From: Thioalkalivibrio sp.
GTDB lineage: Bacteria > Pseudomonadota > Gammaproteobacteria > Ectothiorhodospirales > Ectothiorhodospiraceae
Direction of reading: 5' to 3'
Length of the DNA: 9,938 nt
Assembly (NCBI GenBank): GCA_003555285.1
Contig: PWGH01000136.1
Location: 1-9,938, forward strand
The notes beneath the pieces were generated by a model. That model saw only the letters and a list, made by a program, of their open reading frames with translations, had not been told where the DNA came from and did no database searches. Positions 2,456 through 9,874 of the stretch are shown in pieces; within the stretch, counting starts at the first letter, position 1, and each line of letters opens with the position of its first letter. The position numbers and the translations under genes are program-made.

Positions 2456-5206
2456 ATGCCTGAACAGACTGCAACAAACGCGGCCAGGGGACGTGCGGCC
2501 GCCAAGGCGCGGCGACAGGCGGTTACCCAGAACGGCGGGGCCGCATCGACCCCGTACCGGGCGGGTGGACGACCCACCAAGGCACAGCCGGCGGCAGCGT
2601 CGGCTGGGCCATCGGGCCTGAGCGGAAGAGAACTCGCTCGCGCACGACGGGCCGCCATGACCAATAGCGGAAAGAACGCTGTCGCCACGGCGCCATCGGC
2701 CGCCCCATCCACACCGCCTCCCGCGGCAGCACCGGGGCCTGCCCCGGTTACCGCGGCCCCGGTTGCGGCGACACCGGCTGCCAACGTACCGGCAGCCGTG
2801 CTGCGTGTGGAGACTCCGGCCGATCTGGCGGGCCTGAGCGGACGCGAGCTGGCTCGTGCCCGTCGGGCCCTGCTGGCTCGTGGCGGCAAGCTCGCGCCGG
2901 CGAAGGGCTCCGTCTCTGCATCCAAACCCCGTACGCGACCCAAAGCACCATCGACTCCGGTCGTGGCGCCAGCCGCGGCCGCAACGGAAACGCCGTCCGC
3001 GTCGGCATCCACCGCGGATGACGCGAACAGCGACGAACTCGATCAGTTGTGCGAGATCGCACAAAGCAATCCCTCGGCCTTGGGACCCGACGCCAACAGC
3101 GTCCGGCAGTGGTGCCGCGAACGCCGTCAGGCGCTGTCGACCCGCGGCAAGAAGGCCCTGCCCCGGGTGGGCCAGGCAGCCACCCGGGCCCCCGGCTCCG
3201 GACGCCGTAACGGCACCAGTGGCCTGCAAGGTCGTGATGCCGCGCTGGCGCACCGTGCGCAGCAATGCCGCAATGGCCGCGGCAACAGCCCGGCGTGCCG
3301 CCCCACCGGGCGGCAACGACCGAATGCCAGCGATGCACCCGCCAAGGTGGAAACCGGCACGACCCTTTCGGGGGGATCCGTTTCCGGCACGCAGGTCGAG
3401 CGCAAGGAACGAGTGACCGGGAACGAGCCCGGCACCTGCCGGACCGTCACCGGAACCGAATACGTCGGTGCCGAACAATTCGATCGCTTCTGCGAAACGC
3501 GTCCCAAGCCGGGGGTCCCCAAGGTGGGCAGCAGCATCACCAGCGGGGGACGCTCCCTCACCGGCACGGAAATCGGCCGCTCACGTGCGGTCACCGGTGA
3601 CGAAGCCGGCGACTGCCGATCGGTCACTGGGACCGAATACCTGGGCAGCGAACGCTTCGATGAATTCTGCGAAACCAAGGGGCTGCAACAACAGCCCGCC
3701 AAGGTCGCAATGGGCACCACGGAACGCCTGGGTCTGACGATCAGTGGTGCCGACAACGCGCGCACCGGTGCGGTCACGGGTCAGGAAGCCGGCAGCGGAC
3801 GGGCCATCACTGGCTCGCAGTACTCCGATGGCGGTGCCGCGCGTGCGACCATCAACGGACCCGCCAAGGTCGCACTGACCCATACCATCGCCGGACGTCC
3901 GGTGTCCGGTACGGAAGTCGGCCGGTCAGTCCAGGTGACCGGCGATGAGGCCGGCTCCTGCCGCCAGATCTCGGGCACGGAATACTTGTCGAACGAGCAG
4001 TTCACGACGATCTGCGACACCCGCCCCGCCGCCCCGCCCGCCAAGGTGGGCGTGGATGAAAGCCGTCAAGGCCAACGGATCACCGGAAACCTGGTCGACC
4101 GTTCCGAGCGCGTGACCGGTAACGAGCCGGGCTCGTGTCAGAAGGTGACCGGTTCCCAGTACGGTCGCTCGACGCTGTGCGGCGGCGGACCGGAGAAGGT
4201 CCAGCGCCAGCAAACCCTCGCCGGCCGCGCGCTGACGGGTAGCCGGGTCGATCATGGCCCAAAAATGACCGGTGACGAGCAAGGTGGGTGCAAGCCCGTC
4301 ACCGGGACCGAATATTACGGTCGGGAGCAGTACGATGCGTACTGCGAAAGCACCCCCATGCCTGCCGCGGCGAAGGTCGGCATCAGTGAAAGCCAACGCG
4401 GTCTCCCGGTGTCGGGAACCCCGATGGGTCGCTCCGGCAACGTGACCGGGGCCGAACCTGGCAGCGGGCTCGCGATCAGCGGCACGCCCTACAGTGGACG
4501 CGAGCAACTCACGGCAGCGCCATCGGCGCCGCCGATGCCGGACCTCGTGCGGCGCGAACCGCCGCGCGGTTCCACGCGCTACCAGGCACCAACCGGGCAA
4601 CCCTTGCCGCAGCCGGAACCGGCTCCGCAGGCGCCCGTTGCGACCCCCGCTGACTTCAGCATCGTCAGCCCGGCCCGCTATGCGCAGGAAAAGCGCGAGC
4701 GGATCACCGGCACCGCCTATGCGGGTGGCGGTCGCATCACCGGTCCGGTGAACATGGCCGCGGGCCTTGTTTCCGGCACACCGGAGTTTCGCTACCGCGA
4801 TGAAGAGGCCGAACACGGACCCGCGGTCGCCATGCAACCGCGGCCCGAGCGTGGCCCGCAGCGCGGACACGGACGTGCGCAGGAACGCCGTCCCGAGCCG
4901 ATGCTGCCGCAAGCCGCCGAGGCCGAAGCCGAGATCGTTTCCCGCGTCACAGGGGATGGCCACGCCGCGAGCAAACGGATCACCGGCGATGACTGGGCAC
5001 GAGGCAATCTCGTCACCGGTACCGAAGGTCACTGGGCGGGGCGCAACCCCACCCAACGCGGCACCAACCGCGGTATGGCCGTGGGCGCACGGGTGAACAA
5101 GGAGATCGAACGTCCGGCTCCGGCGCCGGCAACCAACATCACCGGTAGCAGCGGCAACCATGGCGCAGGTGCCATGATTACCGTGTCCGGTGGGGCGCGG
5201 GGCTGA
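2456..5206 (+). CDS. csoS2: CsoS2, disordered carboxysome assembly scaffold
   Basis: A 916-residue intrinsically disordered protein that nucleates the alpha-carboxysome by linking RubisCO to the shell. The N-terminal domain (1 to about 295) carries basic RubisCO-binding repeats near residues 8-31, 54-77, 126-149 and 214-240, two containing GRELARARRA, and a weaker fifth near 256-277. The middle region (about 296-690) has seven repeats of about 55 residues built on VTG..EXG.C..VTGTEY. Five carry a Cys pair (328/346, 387/405, 502/520, 561/575, 612/630); the third and seventh have none. The C-terminal region has ITG/VTG repeats (about 749-783 and 830-869) and ends in the conserved shell-anchoring peptide (from NITG at 894). 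AGGAGG at 2446-2451 precedes the ATG. A -1 frameshift signal in the sixth repeat predicts a short isoform, as known in Halothiobacillus neapolitanus. Confidence 0.97.
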   Translation: MPEQTATNAARGRAAAKARRQAVTQNGGAASTPYRAGGRPTKAQPAAASAGPSGLSGRELARARRAAMTNSGKNAVATAPSAAPSTPPPAAAPGPAPVTAAPVAATPAANVPAAVLRVETPADLAGLSGRELARARRALLARGGKLAPAKGSVSASKPRTRPKAPSTPVVAPAAAATETPSASASTADDANSDELDQLCEIAQSNPSALGPDANSVRQWCRERRQALSTRGKKALPRVGQAATRAPGSGRRNGTSGLQGRDAALAHRAQQCRNGRGNSPACRPTGRQRPNASDAPAKVETGTTLSGGSVSGTQVERKERVTGNEPGTCRTVTGTEYVGAEQFDRFCETRPKPGVPKVGSSITSGGRSLTGTEIGRSRAVTGDEAGDCRSVTGTEYLGSERFDEFCETKGLQQQPAKVAMGTTERLGLTISGADNARTGAVTGQEAGSGRAITGSQYSDGGAARATINGPAKVALTHTIAGRPVSGTEVGRSVQVTGDEAGSCRQISGTEYLSNEQFTTICDTRPAAPPAKVGVDESRQGQRITGNLVDRSERVTGNEPGSCQKVTGSQYGRSTLCGGGPEKVQRQQTLAGRALTGSRVDHGPKMTGDEQGGCKPVTGTEYYGREQYDAYCESTPMPAAAKVGISESQRGLPVSGTPMGRSGNVTGAEPGSGLAISGTPYSGREQLTAAPSAPPMPDLVRREPPRGSTRYQAPTGQPLPQPEPAPQAPVATPADFSIVSPARYAQEKRERITGTAYAGGGRITGPVNMAAGLVSGTPEFRYRDEEAEHGPAVAMQPRPERGPQRGHGRAQERRPEPMLPQAAEAEAEIVSRVTGDGHAASKRITGDDWARGNLVTGTEGHWAGRNPTQRGTNRGMAVGARVNKEIERPAPAPATNITGSSGNHGAGAMITVSGGARG
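4258..4322 (+). promoter_or_regulatory. Probable programmed -1 ribosomal frameshift signal in csoS2
   Basis: The heptamer C CCA AAA (4258-4264) fits X XXY YYZ in the csoS2 reading frame (codons GGC CCA AAA, residues 601-603). Four bases later a perfect 9-bp stem can form, CCGGTGACG (4269-4277) with CGTCACCGG (4297-4305), closing a 19-base loop. A second small hairpin follows (GACCG 4306-4310 with CGGTC 4318-4322). After a -1 slip the ribosome reads AAT GAC CGG and stops at TGA 4273-4275. That gives a protein of 606 residues lacking the C-terminal anchor. H. neapolitanus csoS2 is known to make CsoS2A and CsoS2B by this mechanism. Part of the stem comes from repeated coding sequence. Confidence 0.8.
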
Positions 5207-7406: not shown

Positions 7407-7703
7407 ATGGCTGAAGTGACTGGAATTGCCCTGGGCATGATCGAGACGCGTGGACTGGTTCCCGCCATCGAAGCGGCCGATGCGATGACCAAGGCGGCGG
7501 AAGTGCGCCTGATTGGGCGTCAATTCGTCGGCGGCGGCTACGTGACCGTGCTGGTGCGCGGTGAGACCGGTGCGGTGAACGCGGCCGTGCGTGCTGGTGC
7601 CGATGCCTGTGAGCGGGTCGGCGACGGCCTGGTGGCCGCGCACATCATCGCGCGCGTGCATTCGGAAGTGGAAGGCATCCTGCCCAAGGCCCCTGACGCC
7701 TAG
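7407..7703 (+). CDS. csoS1C: CsoS1C, major hexameric shell protein
   Basis: A 98-residue single BMC-domain protein; hexamers tile the flat facets of the shell, with a narrow central pore for bicarbonate and RuBP. The pore loop FVGG lies at residues 40-43, and the family core [18 protein letters not shown] at 10-27. GAGGAG (7395-7400) lies six bases before the ATG, a strong site. The product differs from the csoS1A product at only residues 3 (Glu/Asp) and 5 (Thr/Ser). The names C, A and B are assigned from gene order as in H. neapolitanus, because sequence alone cannot separate C from A. Confidence 0.97.
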   Translation: MAEVTGIALGMIETRGLVPAIEAADAMTKAAEVRLIGRQFVGGGYVTVLVRGETGAVNAAVRAGADACERVGDGLVAAHIIARVHSEVEGILPKAPDA

Positions 7704-7714
7704 GTGGAAAATCC

Positions 7715-7737
7715 GGTGGCGGCCGCCGGCCGCCGCC
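7715..7737 (+). promoter_or_regulatory. GC-rich hairpin between csoS1C and csoS1A
   Basis: Bases 7715-7724 pair with 7728-7737 as a 10-bp stem (nine Watson-Crick pairs and one G-U) around a GCC loop. No T-run follows, so it is a poor terminator. It lies in the 65-base gap between two nearly identical shell genes and could stabilise or punctuate the message. The role is inferred. Confidence 0.7.
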
Positions 7738-7768
7738 TCTTGAATCCCTGAAACGCAAGGAGAAGGAA

Positions 7769-8065
7769 ATGGCTGACGTAAGTGGAATTGCCCTGGGCAT
7801 GATCGAGACCCGTGGCCTGGTACCGGCGATCGAAGCGGCGGATGCGATGACCAAGGCCGCCGAGGTCCGTCTGATCGGTCGCCAGTTCGTCGGCGGCGGC
7901 TATGTGACCGTGCTGGTCCGTGGTGAAACCGGTGCCGTGAACGCCGCGGTGCGCGCCGGTGCGGACGCCTGCGAGCGGGTCGGCGACGGCCTGGTGGCGG
8001 CGCATATCATCGCCCGTGTGCACTCGGAAGTGGAAGGCATCCTGCCCAAGGCCCCCGACGCGTGA
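7769..8065 (+). CDS. csoS1A: CsoS1A, major hexameric shell protein
   Basis: A 98-residue BMC hexamer subunit of the shell facets, with pore loop FVGG at residues 40-43. It is 96 of 98 identical to the CsoS1C product, yet the genes differ at about 35 silent codons by my count. The pair is therefore not a recent exact duplication and the protein sequence is under tight constraint. AAGGAG (7757-7762) lies six bases before the ATG. A long hairpin (8074-8140) separates it from csoS1B. Confidence 0.97.
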   Translation: MADVSGIALGMIETRGLVPAIEAADAMTKAAEVRLIGRQFVGGGYVTVLVRGETGAVNAAVRAGADACERVGDGLVAAHIIARVHSEVEGILPKAPDA

Positions 8066-8073
8066 TCATCCCG

Positions 8074-8140
8074 GGTAGGCGGTGAACCGACGGTGGCTGG
8101 CATGATGCCTGCCCCCTCGCCGCTCGGTTTGCCGCCTGCC
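8074..8140 (+). promoter_or_regulatory. 17-bp stem-loop between csoS1A and csoS1B
   Basis: Bases 8074-8090 can pair with 8124-8140 in an unbroken 17-bp RNA stem: 14 Watson-Crick pairs and three G-U pairs. The 33-base loop holds an inner hairpin (GGCA 8099-8102 with TGCC 8106-8109). No U-tract follows. It ends 27 bases before csoS1B. Such a structure could hold back read-through or protect the upstream message, giving less CsoS1B than CsoS1A/C. The fold is read by eye, and the role is inferred. Confidence 0.7.
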
Positions 8141-8167
8141 ATAACCCGTTGAACGTGGAGTAGAACA

Positions 8168-8506
8168 ATGGCAGCAGGCATAGGTATTGCGTTGGGCATG
8201 ATCGAAACCCGTGGTTTGGTCCCCGCCATCGAGGCGGCGGATGCGATGACCAAGGCGGCGGAAGTGCGCCTGATCGGCCGCGAGTTCGTCGGCGGCGGTT
8301 ACGTCACCGTGCTGGTGCGGGGCGAAACCGGCGCGGTCAACGCCGCGGTGCGCGCCGGCGCGGACGCCTGCGAGCGGGTCGGCGACGGCCTGGTGGCGGC
8401 GCACATCATCGCGCGGGTGCACTCCGAGGTCGAGACCATTCTGCCGACGACACCGCAATCCGGTGGCGGCGGTCGCGATGGTGAACTCACCACCGAGCGC
8501 AGTTAA
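8168..8506 (+). CDS. csoS1B: CsoS1B, hexameric shell protein with C-terminal extension
   Basis: A 112-residue BMC protein forming shell hexamers. Residues 6-89 match CsoS1C except Gln39Glu, which sits next to the pore loop FVGG (40-43). The first five residues differ, and the tail after about residue 90 is longer, polar and Gly-rich ([10 protein letters not shown]). The longer C-terminus is the mark of CsoS1B in H. neapolitanus and is the basis for the name. GGAG (8157-8160) lies seven bases before the ATG, a weaker site than those of csoS1C and csoS1A, consistent with a minor component. Confidence 0.95.
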
Positions 8507-8513
8507 GTCCCTG

Positions 8514-8963
8514 ATGCGAATCCATCCCCGTCTGGCTGGCTTCCTCACGCAGGCCCTCAGTCATGAACTGACGGCAGTGCAGCAGTACCTGACCCAGGGC
8601 ACGTTGTGTGGGTTGTGGGGATTCACGGAAGAAGCCGCCTACTTCCGTCGCGAGGCGGGCGAGGAACTGGACCATGCCGAGCAGATCATCCGGCGGATGC
8701 TGACGCTCGGCATGGCGCCCAACGGCTCGCGACTCGAGCCGGTGCGCCCGGGCCGCGATCTGACCGAGATGCTGACCCTCGATCGCGGGCTGGAACTCGA
8801 CGCCGTATACCTGTACGACGACGCGCTGCGCTTTTGCGAACGGGACGGCGATGCGGACTCCGCGGCGCTGTTCGCCCAACTGCTGGGCGACGAACAGCAT
8901 CACCTGCAGGAACTCGATCGCATGTTGGCGGCACTCGCACAGAAGGAGACAGGCCATGGCTGA
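8514..8963 (+). CDS. Bacterioferritin-like four-helix diiron protein
   Basis: A 149-residue ferritin-superfamily protein commonly found in gammaproteobacterial cso operons; its role in carboxysome biology is not settled. Starting at the ATG at 8514, the di-iron ligands fall at exactly the E. coli Bfr numbers: Glu18, Glu51, His54, Glu94, Glu127 and His130. This supports the start and suggests a working ferroxidase centre. Bfr haem is held by Met52, which is Leu52 here, so haem binding is unlikely. In-frame upstream starts (GTG 8463, ATG 8478) would overlap csoS1B and add residues that the family lacks. No clear Shine-Dalgarno site is seen before 8514; the gene starts seven bases after csoS1B and may be coupled to it. 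It overlaps acRAF by eight bases. Confidence 0.85.
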   Translation: MRIHPRLAGFLTQALSHELTAVQQYLTQGTLCGLWGFTEEAAYFRREAGEELDHAEQIIRRMLTLGMAPNGSRLEPVRPGRDLTEMLTLDRGLELDAVYLYDDALRFCERDGDADSAALFAQLLGDEQHHLQELDRMLAALAQKETGHG

Positions 8964-9225
8964 ACCCCTATCCGGTACCGCCTGGCGGGTGCAGCAACGA
9001 CCGCCGTTGCTGACCCGCCGGTATGACTTCGCGTCCTACACCGAGACGCGGAAATTCCTCGACGATCTGGCCACGTGGTCGGAGCGTACGGGCCTGTTTC
9101 CCGATCTCAGTTTCGGCACCACGTATGTGAACATCACCGTCCCGCTGCAGGCCGACGTACCCGATGCCGCCGAGGAGACGATGGCGTTGGAAATCGACGC
9201 ACTGGCCGCCCAGGCCGGCGGTTGA
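8956..9225 (+). CDS. acRAF, PCD-like RubisCO assembly factor
   Basis: An 89-residue protein of the pterin-4a-carbinolamine dehydratase (PCD) fold. In alpha-carboxysome operons this family acts as a chaperone for form IA RubisCO assembly rather than as an enzyme. The core is RRYDFASYTETRKFLDDLA (about residues 23-41), then TGLFPDLSFGTTYVNITV. True PCDs have a catalytic His-His-Pro where this protein has Leu-Phe-Pro, so dehydratase activity is not expected. The ATG at 8956 is chosen for AAGGAG (8943-8948) seven bases upstream; an in-frame extension back to 8851 would lie inside the ferritin-like gene. The gene overlaps the preceding one by eight bases and is followed 13 bases later by mcdA. Confidence 0.9.
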   Translation: MAEPLSGTAWRVQQRPPLLTRRYDFASYTETRKFLDDLATWSERTGLFPDLSFGTTYVNITVPLQADVPDAAEETMALEIDALAAQAGG

Positions 9226-9238
9226 CCGGGAGCACGAA

Positions 9239-9874
9239 ATGACGTGCCGTTTGATCGCGCTGGCCAGCCTCAAGGGGGGCTGCGGAAAGTCCACCCTGGC
9301 GCTGAATCTGGCCGCCGGACTGGCCCGTCGGGGCGGCACCCTCGGCCTGCTCGACGCCGATCCCCAGGGCGCCTTGCAGCACTGGGCGGCCTGGGGACCC
9401 GAGCAGGGCCTGCCGCAGGTGCTCGCCGGCGGCACGGACCCGGTGGCGGCCTTGGCGCAGGCGGCACGACAGTTCGACACCGTTGTGGTGGATTGCCCGC
9501 CCTCGCTGGACATGGTGATCACCGGGGCGATCCTGGAGCATGTGGATATGGTGCTGATCCCGGTCCTGCCCTCCGCGTTGGATCTCTGGGCGGGCGCGGG
9601 CACCGCGGAGGCCGTCGCCGAAGCGCGCCAGCGCAATCCGGCACTCGGCGCCTGGATGTTGCTGAACCAGGTGGAACCGCGCAGCGCCCTGTCCCGCGCG
9701 ATGACCCAGGCCTTGTCGGGCCTGACGATTCCGACGCTGGAGAACCGGGTTCGACGGCGGGCCGCATTCCGGCTGGCCGCGGTGGAAGGCGTCAGCGTGT
9801 ACCAATTGGGGGCCCGGGGCCGCGAGGCGGCGCGGGAAATTGATCAGGTTATCGAAGAGGCATTGCAGACATGA
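9239..9874 (+). CDS. mcdA: McdA, ParA-type carboxysome positioning ATPase
   Basis: A 211-residue ParA/MinD-family ATPase. Alpha-carboxysome McdA coats the nucleoid and is released by McdB, spacing carboxysomes along the cell so both daughters inherit them. The deviant Walker A motif KGGCGKST is at residues 12-19 with signature Lys12 and Lys17, Walker A' LLDADPQG at 37-44, and Walker B VVVDCPPS with Asp85. There is no N-terminal helix-turn-helix domain, so it is the short ParA type used for cargo positioning. The ATG at 9239 puts Walker A close to the N-terminus, as usual, with GGGAG (9228-9232) six bases upstream; the longer frame back to 9164 overlaps acRAF. Its stop overlaps the next start in ATGA. 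Confidence 0.93.
   Translation: MTCRLIALASLKGGCGKSTLALNLAAGLARRGGTLGLLDADPQGALQHWAAWGPEQGLPQVLAGGTDPVAALAQAARQFDTVVVDCPPSLDMVITGAILEHVDMVLIPVLPSALDLWAGAGTAEAVAEARQRNPALGAWMLLNQVEPRSALSRAMTQALSGLTIPTLENRVRRRAAFRLAAVEGVSVYQLGARGREAAREIDQVIEEALQT

Follow-up and report, generated by a model that had tools for sequence, protein, structure and literature searches.

The probable programmed -1 frameshift element of csoS2 in a Thioalkalivibrio alpha-carboxysome operon: covariation points to a long-range pseudoknot

The stretch analysed here (9,938 nucleotides [nt] from Thioalkalivibrio sp., contig PWGH01000136.1, hereafter the window) represents an alpha-carboxysome operon composed of the genes for the large and small subunits of Rubisco, csoS2, csoSCA, two CsoS4-type pentamer genes and three csoS1 copies. 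With high probability, csoS2 contains a programmed -1 frameshift element, the stimulator of which is very probably an H-type pseudoknot and not a lone hairpin. The core of the csoS2 frameshift is already known in another organism; the new part is the pseudoknot, which is supported by covariation and very probably extends the element to position 4355. The slippery heptamer, its phase, the -1 stop, the stem, the covariation of the long-range helix and the association of this helix with the heptamer are all read from the sequences of the window and of its relatives.

The heptamer C_CCA_AAA is located in middle repeat 6 of csoS2 and is the sole in-phase heptamer of the type X_XXY_YYZ (Y = A or T) in this gene. 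Its phase is read directly from the codons 602 (CCA, 4259-4261) and 603 (AAA, 4262-4264), preceded by a C at position 4258. A spacer of four bases (4265-4268) separates the heptamer from a predicted stem of 9 bp (stem 1), the folding of which in four pieces gave z-scores of -3.3, -3.6, -4.1 and -1.6 against dinucleotide shuffles. In the -1 frame the sequence becomes CCC AAA AAT GAC CGG TGA, so that the stop is found three codons after the slip, within the 5' arm of stem 1, and the predicted short product counts 603 + 3 = 606 residues and ends with Asn-Asp-Arg. The phase of the heptamer, the spacer, the stem, the -1 stop and the short product had been put forward in a preliminary description of this DNA and were recovered here. 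A search of Rfam with positions 4100-4600 gave four matches (E-values 2.5 to 7.4), all far below the gathering scores.

According to the proposed mechanism, ribosomes would arrive at CCA AAA in repeat 6, where stem 1, with its apical loop GGGTGC also paired to GCACCC, would resist unwinding. Some of them would slip to CCC AAA, read AAT GAC CGG and stop at TGA; this would release a 606-residue CsoS2A that retains five middle repeats and the N-terminal domain by which Rubisco is bound, without the C-terminal shell-binding domain. The remaining ribosomes would make the 916-residue CsoS2B. The slipping itself, roughly half and half, is taken from the published work on Halothiobacillus neapolitanus, and the production of the 606-residue form is presumed from the same case. 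We infer that slipping also takes place in the organism of the window, at a rate increased by formation of the pseudoknot.

The programmed -1 frameshifting of H. neapolitanus csoS2 was reportedly described by Chaijarasphong et al. in 2016. Frameshifting in this gene is established, as the preliminary description had stated: it is 50% efficient and yields products of 869 and 570 amino acids (aa), the latter with three C-terminal residues coming from the -1 frame, and it is predicted for csoS2 in 79 of 162 species (PMC5009743). The ratio of CsoS2A to CsoS2B is 1.3:1 in native carboxysomes and 1.2:1 in carboxysomes made in Escherichia coli (PMC9040747). Homology with the H. neapolitanus site, by its place and its tail, supports the earlier proposal that the window contains a frameshift signal giving a short form without the C-terminal domain. 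In the open-licence literature searched, the scope of which leaves out the primary 2016 paper, no description of csoS2 frameshifting with a pseudoknot was found, and the two are not connected in the passages of PMC5009743 and PMC12799943 that were available.

Related genes were gathered from a contig scan (limited to the 80 top-ranking places among 223 confirmed), from two plasmid loci and from searches of whole genomes with PF12288 (at most 30 loci each). The resulting sample contains 200 distinct csoS2 open reading frames (ORFs), some of them partial and the window included, the loci being labelled L###; it is skewed to genes resembling that of the window, so that fractions of 200 are not prevalences. 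In 105 of these ORFs (60 with AAA and 45 with AAG) the heptamer C_CCA_AA[AG] precedes the hairpin arms, a count which preselects this heptamer. When all codons for Pro-Lys were accepted upstream of these arms, eight sites were added, seven of which align with other repeats, the eighth (L236, CCC AAG) being aligned with residue 602. CCG with Lys was absent from the slip site of the genes of this sample having the hairpin arms. The preliminary description had named CCG or AAG in orthologues as evidence against the signal. For AAG this view is not retained, because it is found in 45 of the 105 genes, including L097 (H. neapolitanus type, see below), and because C_CC.A_AA.G reached the top of the range tested in E. 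coli (54% with the IS3 pseudoknot; PMC4066793). The presence of AAA at Lys603 in an AAG-rich gene was correctly noticed (4 AAA and 21 AAG among the Lys codons) but is uninformative. The -1 stop is localized three codons past the slip in 103 of the 105 genes and one codon past in the two others. In L146 the heptamer is present, but both the customary 3' arm and the downstream partner are missing. Within the order of the Lamprocystis genome G004, none of the 29 distinct ORFs (L205-L234, from 30 of the 78 csoS2-bearing genomes found in this order) contains the heptamer with the repeat-6 hairpin.

As a separate observation on this sample, the loci L080 and L121 (G016) come from a metagenome-assembled genome titled Nitriliruptoraceae, with csoS2 on a 3.7-kb contig. 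This is probably a binning error, because PF12288 was found in none of the 35 other genomes searched in the same order.

GCACCC (4350-4355) corresponds exactly to the reverse complement of the apical loop hexamer of stem 1, GGGTGC (4286-4291), and the helix that they would form (stem 2) is worth -10.2 kcal/mol alone. The geometry in the window comprises a stem 1 of 9 bp, a loop 1 of 8 nt, a stem 2 of 6 bp, 5 intervening nt and a loop 3 of 44 nt. The element, for which an end at 4322 had been given, very probably extends to 4355, the downstream partner having been missed. An exact reverse complement of the gene's own hexamer was detected at most 65 nt past the stem in 83 of the 104 testable slip-bearing genes (82 without L203); L055 was excluded from the partner counts, having too little downstream sequence. 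When the hexamers were permuted among genes (10,000 rounds), the mean was 53.2 and the maximum 65. The loop GGGTGC is accompanied by GCACCC in 70 of 72 genes, whereas the loop GAGTGC is accompanied by GCACTC in nine of nine genes and by GCACCC in none. An exact partner also exists for the loops GTGTGC (1/1), GGGCGC (1/1) and GGATGC (1/3), and is absent for GGGTGT (0/5), GGCTGC (0/11) and CGGCGC (0/1). The loop GGGGGC of L203 has its exact match (1/1), yet this gene also contains GCACCC beside a run of C; the match looks like the C-run and was set aside as a compensatory case. A match to GGCTGC at 28 nt in L059 and L151 looks like chance and was also discarded. A hexamer scan of the loop in 95 genes showed a peak of exact matches at the hexamer 4286-4291 with 74 genes, against 37 and 28 for the overlapping neighbours and 0 to 10 at the other positions.

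A MAFFT alignment built without structure contained 43 of 45 representatives (L076 and L081 were left out). In this alignment, stem 2 pairs in 89.5% of cells, versus 33-55% when the partner is slid, and cells with a double change number 9, versus a shuffled mean of 1.7 (reached in none of 500 shuffles). On the tree of the 45 genes, GAGTGC requires three origins (L014 in Lamprocystis, L029 in Acidithiobacillus and L070 in Thiobacillus), and L002, L013 and L015 display three further loop variants with matching partners; variants with matched partners are present in about six lineages. This covariation indicates that the apical loop very probably pairs, as RNA, with the downstream single strand. 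The two local hairpins predicted downstream of stem 1 (4306-4310/4318-4322 and 4327-4334/4338-4345) behave differently: 61-63% of their cells are paired across the 43 genes and their double changes remain within the shuffled range, so that they were rejected as conserved elements. The first of them (63% of cells, double changes not in excess) is the second small hairpin of the preliminary description, which is indeed predicted in three of the four folded pieces but is not conserved.

A constraint on the amino acids, Gly-Cys in repeat 6 and Ser-Thr-Pro in the linker that follows, could be invoked for these conserved bases, and the partner is in fact most often read as STP or GTP (60/83). We give this explanation the lowest probability of those considered, and a minimal one. 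The reading frame of the partner is the same in 70 genes and differs in 12, where it is read as APx (L203 left out), and the loop changes Gly to Glu, Gly to Val and Cys to Arg all come with a matching partner. Among the exact cases, the distance of the partner ranges from 14 to 52 nt, with four genes at 14 nt (L056 of Thiomonas, L058 and L081 of Nitrobacter, and L073) and the others at 35-52 nt. The partner shifts in frame and in distance, and conservation at the protein level is therefore no explanation.

Several observations weigh against a pseudoknot-stimulated frameshift element. At the level of the single sequence, 5000 shuffles of synonymous codons create a slippery heptamer at the site in 4.2% of cases and an in-phase CCCAAA somewhere in the gene in 20%. 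Among the six other VTG...VTG repeats, three have a more stable fold than the slip repeat (47-nt pieces, -15.4 to -26.5 kcal/mol for the other repeats and -20.1 for the slip repeat). The stem, which the preliminary description counted as part of the signal, is unremarkable alone, because all the repeats encode VTG...VTG and half of the six others are more stable. The signal of the single sequence is therefore weak, barely more than chance alone would give, and it is the comparative evidence that lifts it above chance. The stability of the other repeats and the frequency of CCCAAA in the shuffles are what would be expected if csoS2 contained no working frameshift signal, only a chance heptamer in a repetitive gene and a hairpin that is a by-product of its repeats. 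We consider this very improbable, given that the heptamer and hairpin recur in 105 of the 200 collected ORFs although CCA represents only 725 of 5767 Pro codons (subset of 96 genes with slip site and hairpin), and that experiments have established the homologous site in H. neapolitanus (PMC5009743).

Concerning the pseudoknot itself, the number of stem 2 pairs with a double change is unexceptional, being reached in 77 of 500 shuffles, and 21 of the 104 slip-bearing genes have no exact partner. Five GGGTGT genes and two GGGTGC genes (L006 and L067) need G-U pairs, some of them weak; four L046-type genes pair only via G-U, at 14 nt, and L030 pairs solely with G-U, at an unusual distance. Nine genes have no partner within 65 nt even when G-U is allowed: L038, L024 (where five of six positions could pair) and the seven genes of the L157 group (L157, L158 and L160-L164), whose genomes belong to the same order as the Leucothrix genome G013. 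This group has retained C_CCA_AAG and the hairpin, with an apical hexamer GGCTGC devoid of partner; a label of Thiothrix type would be unfounded for it, because STP occupies the partner position in the Thiothrix nivea protein P0044, unlike in L157. In the genes lacking an exact partner and in L146, slipping may be reduced or absent; otherwise the pseudoknot cannot be an absolute requirement. The L157 group constitutes a natural test of this requirement.

These nine genes would be easily understood if the hairpin were the sole stimulator of the same frameshift signal and if the match between GGGTGC and GCACCC were incidental or had another role in the mRNA; the available account in PMC5009743 likewise mentions a 3' stem loop and not a pseudoknot. 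Such a reading is unlikely in view of the compensatory changes in about six lineages, with their shifts of frame and distance, and of the link between partner and slip site. This link was measured on 189 genes, ten of the 200 being not alignable at the site and L055 too short: an exact partner is found in 83 of 105 genes with the heptamer (L146 included) versus 4 of 84 without it. Recent loss of the slip site seems to be the case in two genes without the heptamer, L009 (C_CGA_AAA) and L032 (C_CCG_CAA), where the hairpin is still largely intact and the partner mismatched. Here too a reservation applies, as the supported independent pairs number five, of which 3.4 on average go the same way, 0.0 the opposite way and 1.6 show no difference; the association is below significance because kinship leaves too few independent events.

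The genes of Thioalkalivibrio sulfidiphilus, T. denitrificans and L179-L194 of their order (the L045/L047 group) are without the repeat-6 heptamer, which is retained with its site in other loci titled Thioalkalivibrio (L064, L066 and L072). In 18 of the 18 genes examined in this group, an in-phase G_GGA_AAG is located around ORF position 508-520, and the -1 stop follows the slip after one or seventeen codons; GGA is an uncommon Gly codon in this group (136 of 2402), and the folds predicted downstream differ in shape. G_GGA_AAG may be a replacement slip site, a lead drawn from close kin. By extension, one can speculate that the csoS2 element of proteobacterial alpha-carboxysomes (alpha-, beta- and gamma-lineages, with the H. 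neapolitanus type among them) has from the outset been a long-range H-type pseudoknot setting CsoS2A:CsoS2B near 1:1, and that lineages which lost it either lost slipping or, like the L045/L047 group, gained another site such as G_GGA_AAG; we regard this generalization as possible but rather doubtful. The coordinates of the element are given in Table 1.

Table 1. Position of csoS2, its predicted products and the parts of the candidate frameshift element in the window.
Feature	Position	Strand	Evidence
csoS2, 916 aa, full-length CsoS2B-type product	2456..5206	+	Pfam PF12288 CsoS2_M, 8.3e-177
Predicted short CsoS2A-type product, 606 aa	2456..4275	+	zero frame to AAA 4264, then -1 AAT GAC CGG TGA
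Slippery heptamer C_CCA_AAA, in phase with csoS2	4258..4264	+	sequence; C_CCA_AA[AG] + hairpin in 105/200 distinct csoS2 ORFs
Stem 1, 5' arm CCGGTGACG	4269..4277	+	predicted fold
-1 frame stop TGA, within stem 1 5' arm	4273..4275	+	sequence
Putative pseudoknot stem 2, 5' strand (apical loop hexamer GGGTGC)	4286..4291	+	covariation
Stem 1, 3' arm CGTCACCGG	4297..4305	+	predicted fold
Putative pseudoknot loop 3, 44 nt; holds the hairpin 4306-4310/4318-4322, not conserved	4306..4349	+	
Putative pseudoknot stem 2, 3' strand GCACCC	4350..4355	+	covariation

The CsoS2 isoforms have been linked to carboxysome size and Rubisco packing (PMC11481516). If loss of the pseudoknot were indeed offset by a new slip site, the two-isoform design would be selected for and re-invented. 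The gene csoS2 is also carried into recombinant carboxysomes, and if the element reaches 4355, truncation after repeat 6 or recoding of the linker could remove part of the stimulator from a construct without this being noticed. In one study, expression of csoS2 from a neutral site gave CsoS2B as the only form observed, and the authors considered reduced frameshifting there as likely (PMC11365436). The element would finally place a pseudoknot supported by covariation in the role of stimulator in a gene of the bacterial cell itself; the pseudoknot-stimulated cases in bacteria named in the literature cited here, as far as these sources were available, are insertion sequences (PMC4066793, PMC5009743).

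Elsewhere in the window, an array of 3.1 tandem copies of an 89-bp unit (93% matches) occupies positions 1-272, upstream of cbbL. The three csoS1 shell genes are in tandem (7407-8506), and the first and second proteins are nearly identical over 98 aa. The tail of the operon (8463-9874) contains a bacterioferritin-like gene, a pterin-dehydratase-like match scoring slightly below the Pfam cut-off, and the gene of a ParA-type ATPase, which may be a carboxysome-positioning ATPase.

Among known systems, dnaX combines the heptamer A_AAA_AAG with an upstream Shine-Dalgarno stimulator. It resembles csoS2 by a -1 slip, a hairpin and an early stop that gives a shorter subunit, with products near 1:1 (PMC5009743). 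It differs by its upstream stimulator, none of the motifs GGAG, AGGA and GAGG being found in the 59 nt before the window heptamer.

In the IS3 pseudoknot, the loop of stem 1 pairs with downstream sequence. Frameshifting of the IS3 type shares with csoS2 the heptamer, the short spacer and this pairing of the stem 1 loop (PMC4066793, PMC5009743). In IS3, however, the shift fuses two ORFs into the transposase, whereas in csoS2 it would truncate an organelle scaffold protein, and loop 3 of csoS2 counts 44 nt in the window, with a partner at 14-52 nt in the relatives. The apical loop-internal loop (ALIL) pseudoknots of IS3411 and its relatives (Mazauric 2008, via PMC5009743) are also comparable, in that the apical loop pairs tens of nt downstream. 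Their partner, as summarized there, is the internal loop of a second stem-loop; for csoS2, no conserved second stem-loop holding the partner was found among the two predicted hairpins of the window, which were the only ones tested, others not having been searched for.

The closest likeness is with csoS2 of H. neapolitanus, by the gene, the place in repeat 6, the heptamer with its 3' structure, the three-residue -1 tail and the loss of the C-terminal domain. In our sample, L097 is assigned to the H. neapolitanus type on account of its length of 869 aa, its near identity from end to end with the CsoS2B of PDB entry 9ly8 and the 570 aa that its slip site would give. Its heptamer is C_CCA_AAG, and it differs in this respect from the window, where the Lys codon is AAA. 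Both sequences contain the putative pseudoknot pairing, L097 having GGGTGC/GCACCC at 44 nt.

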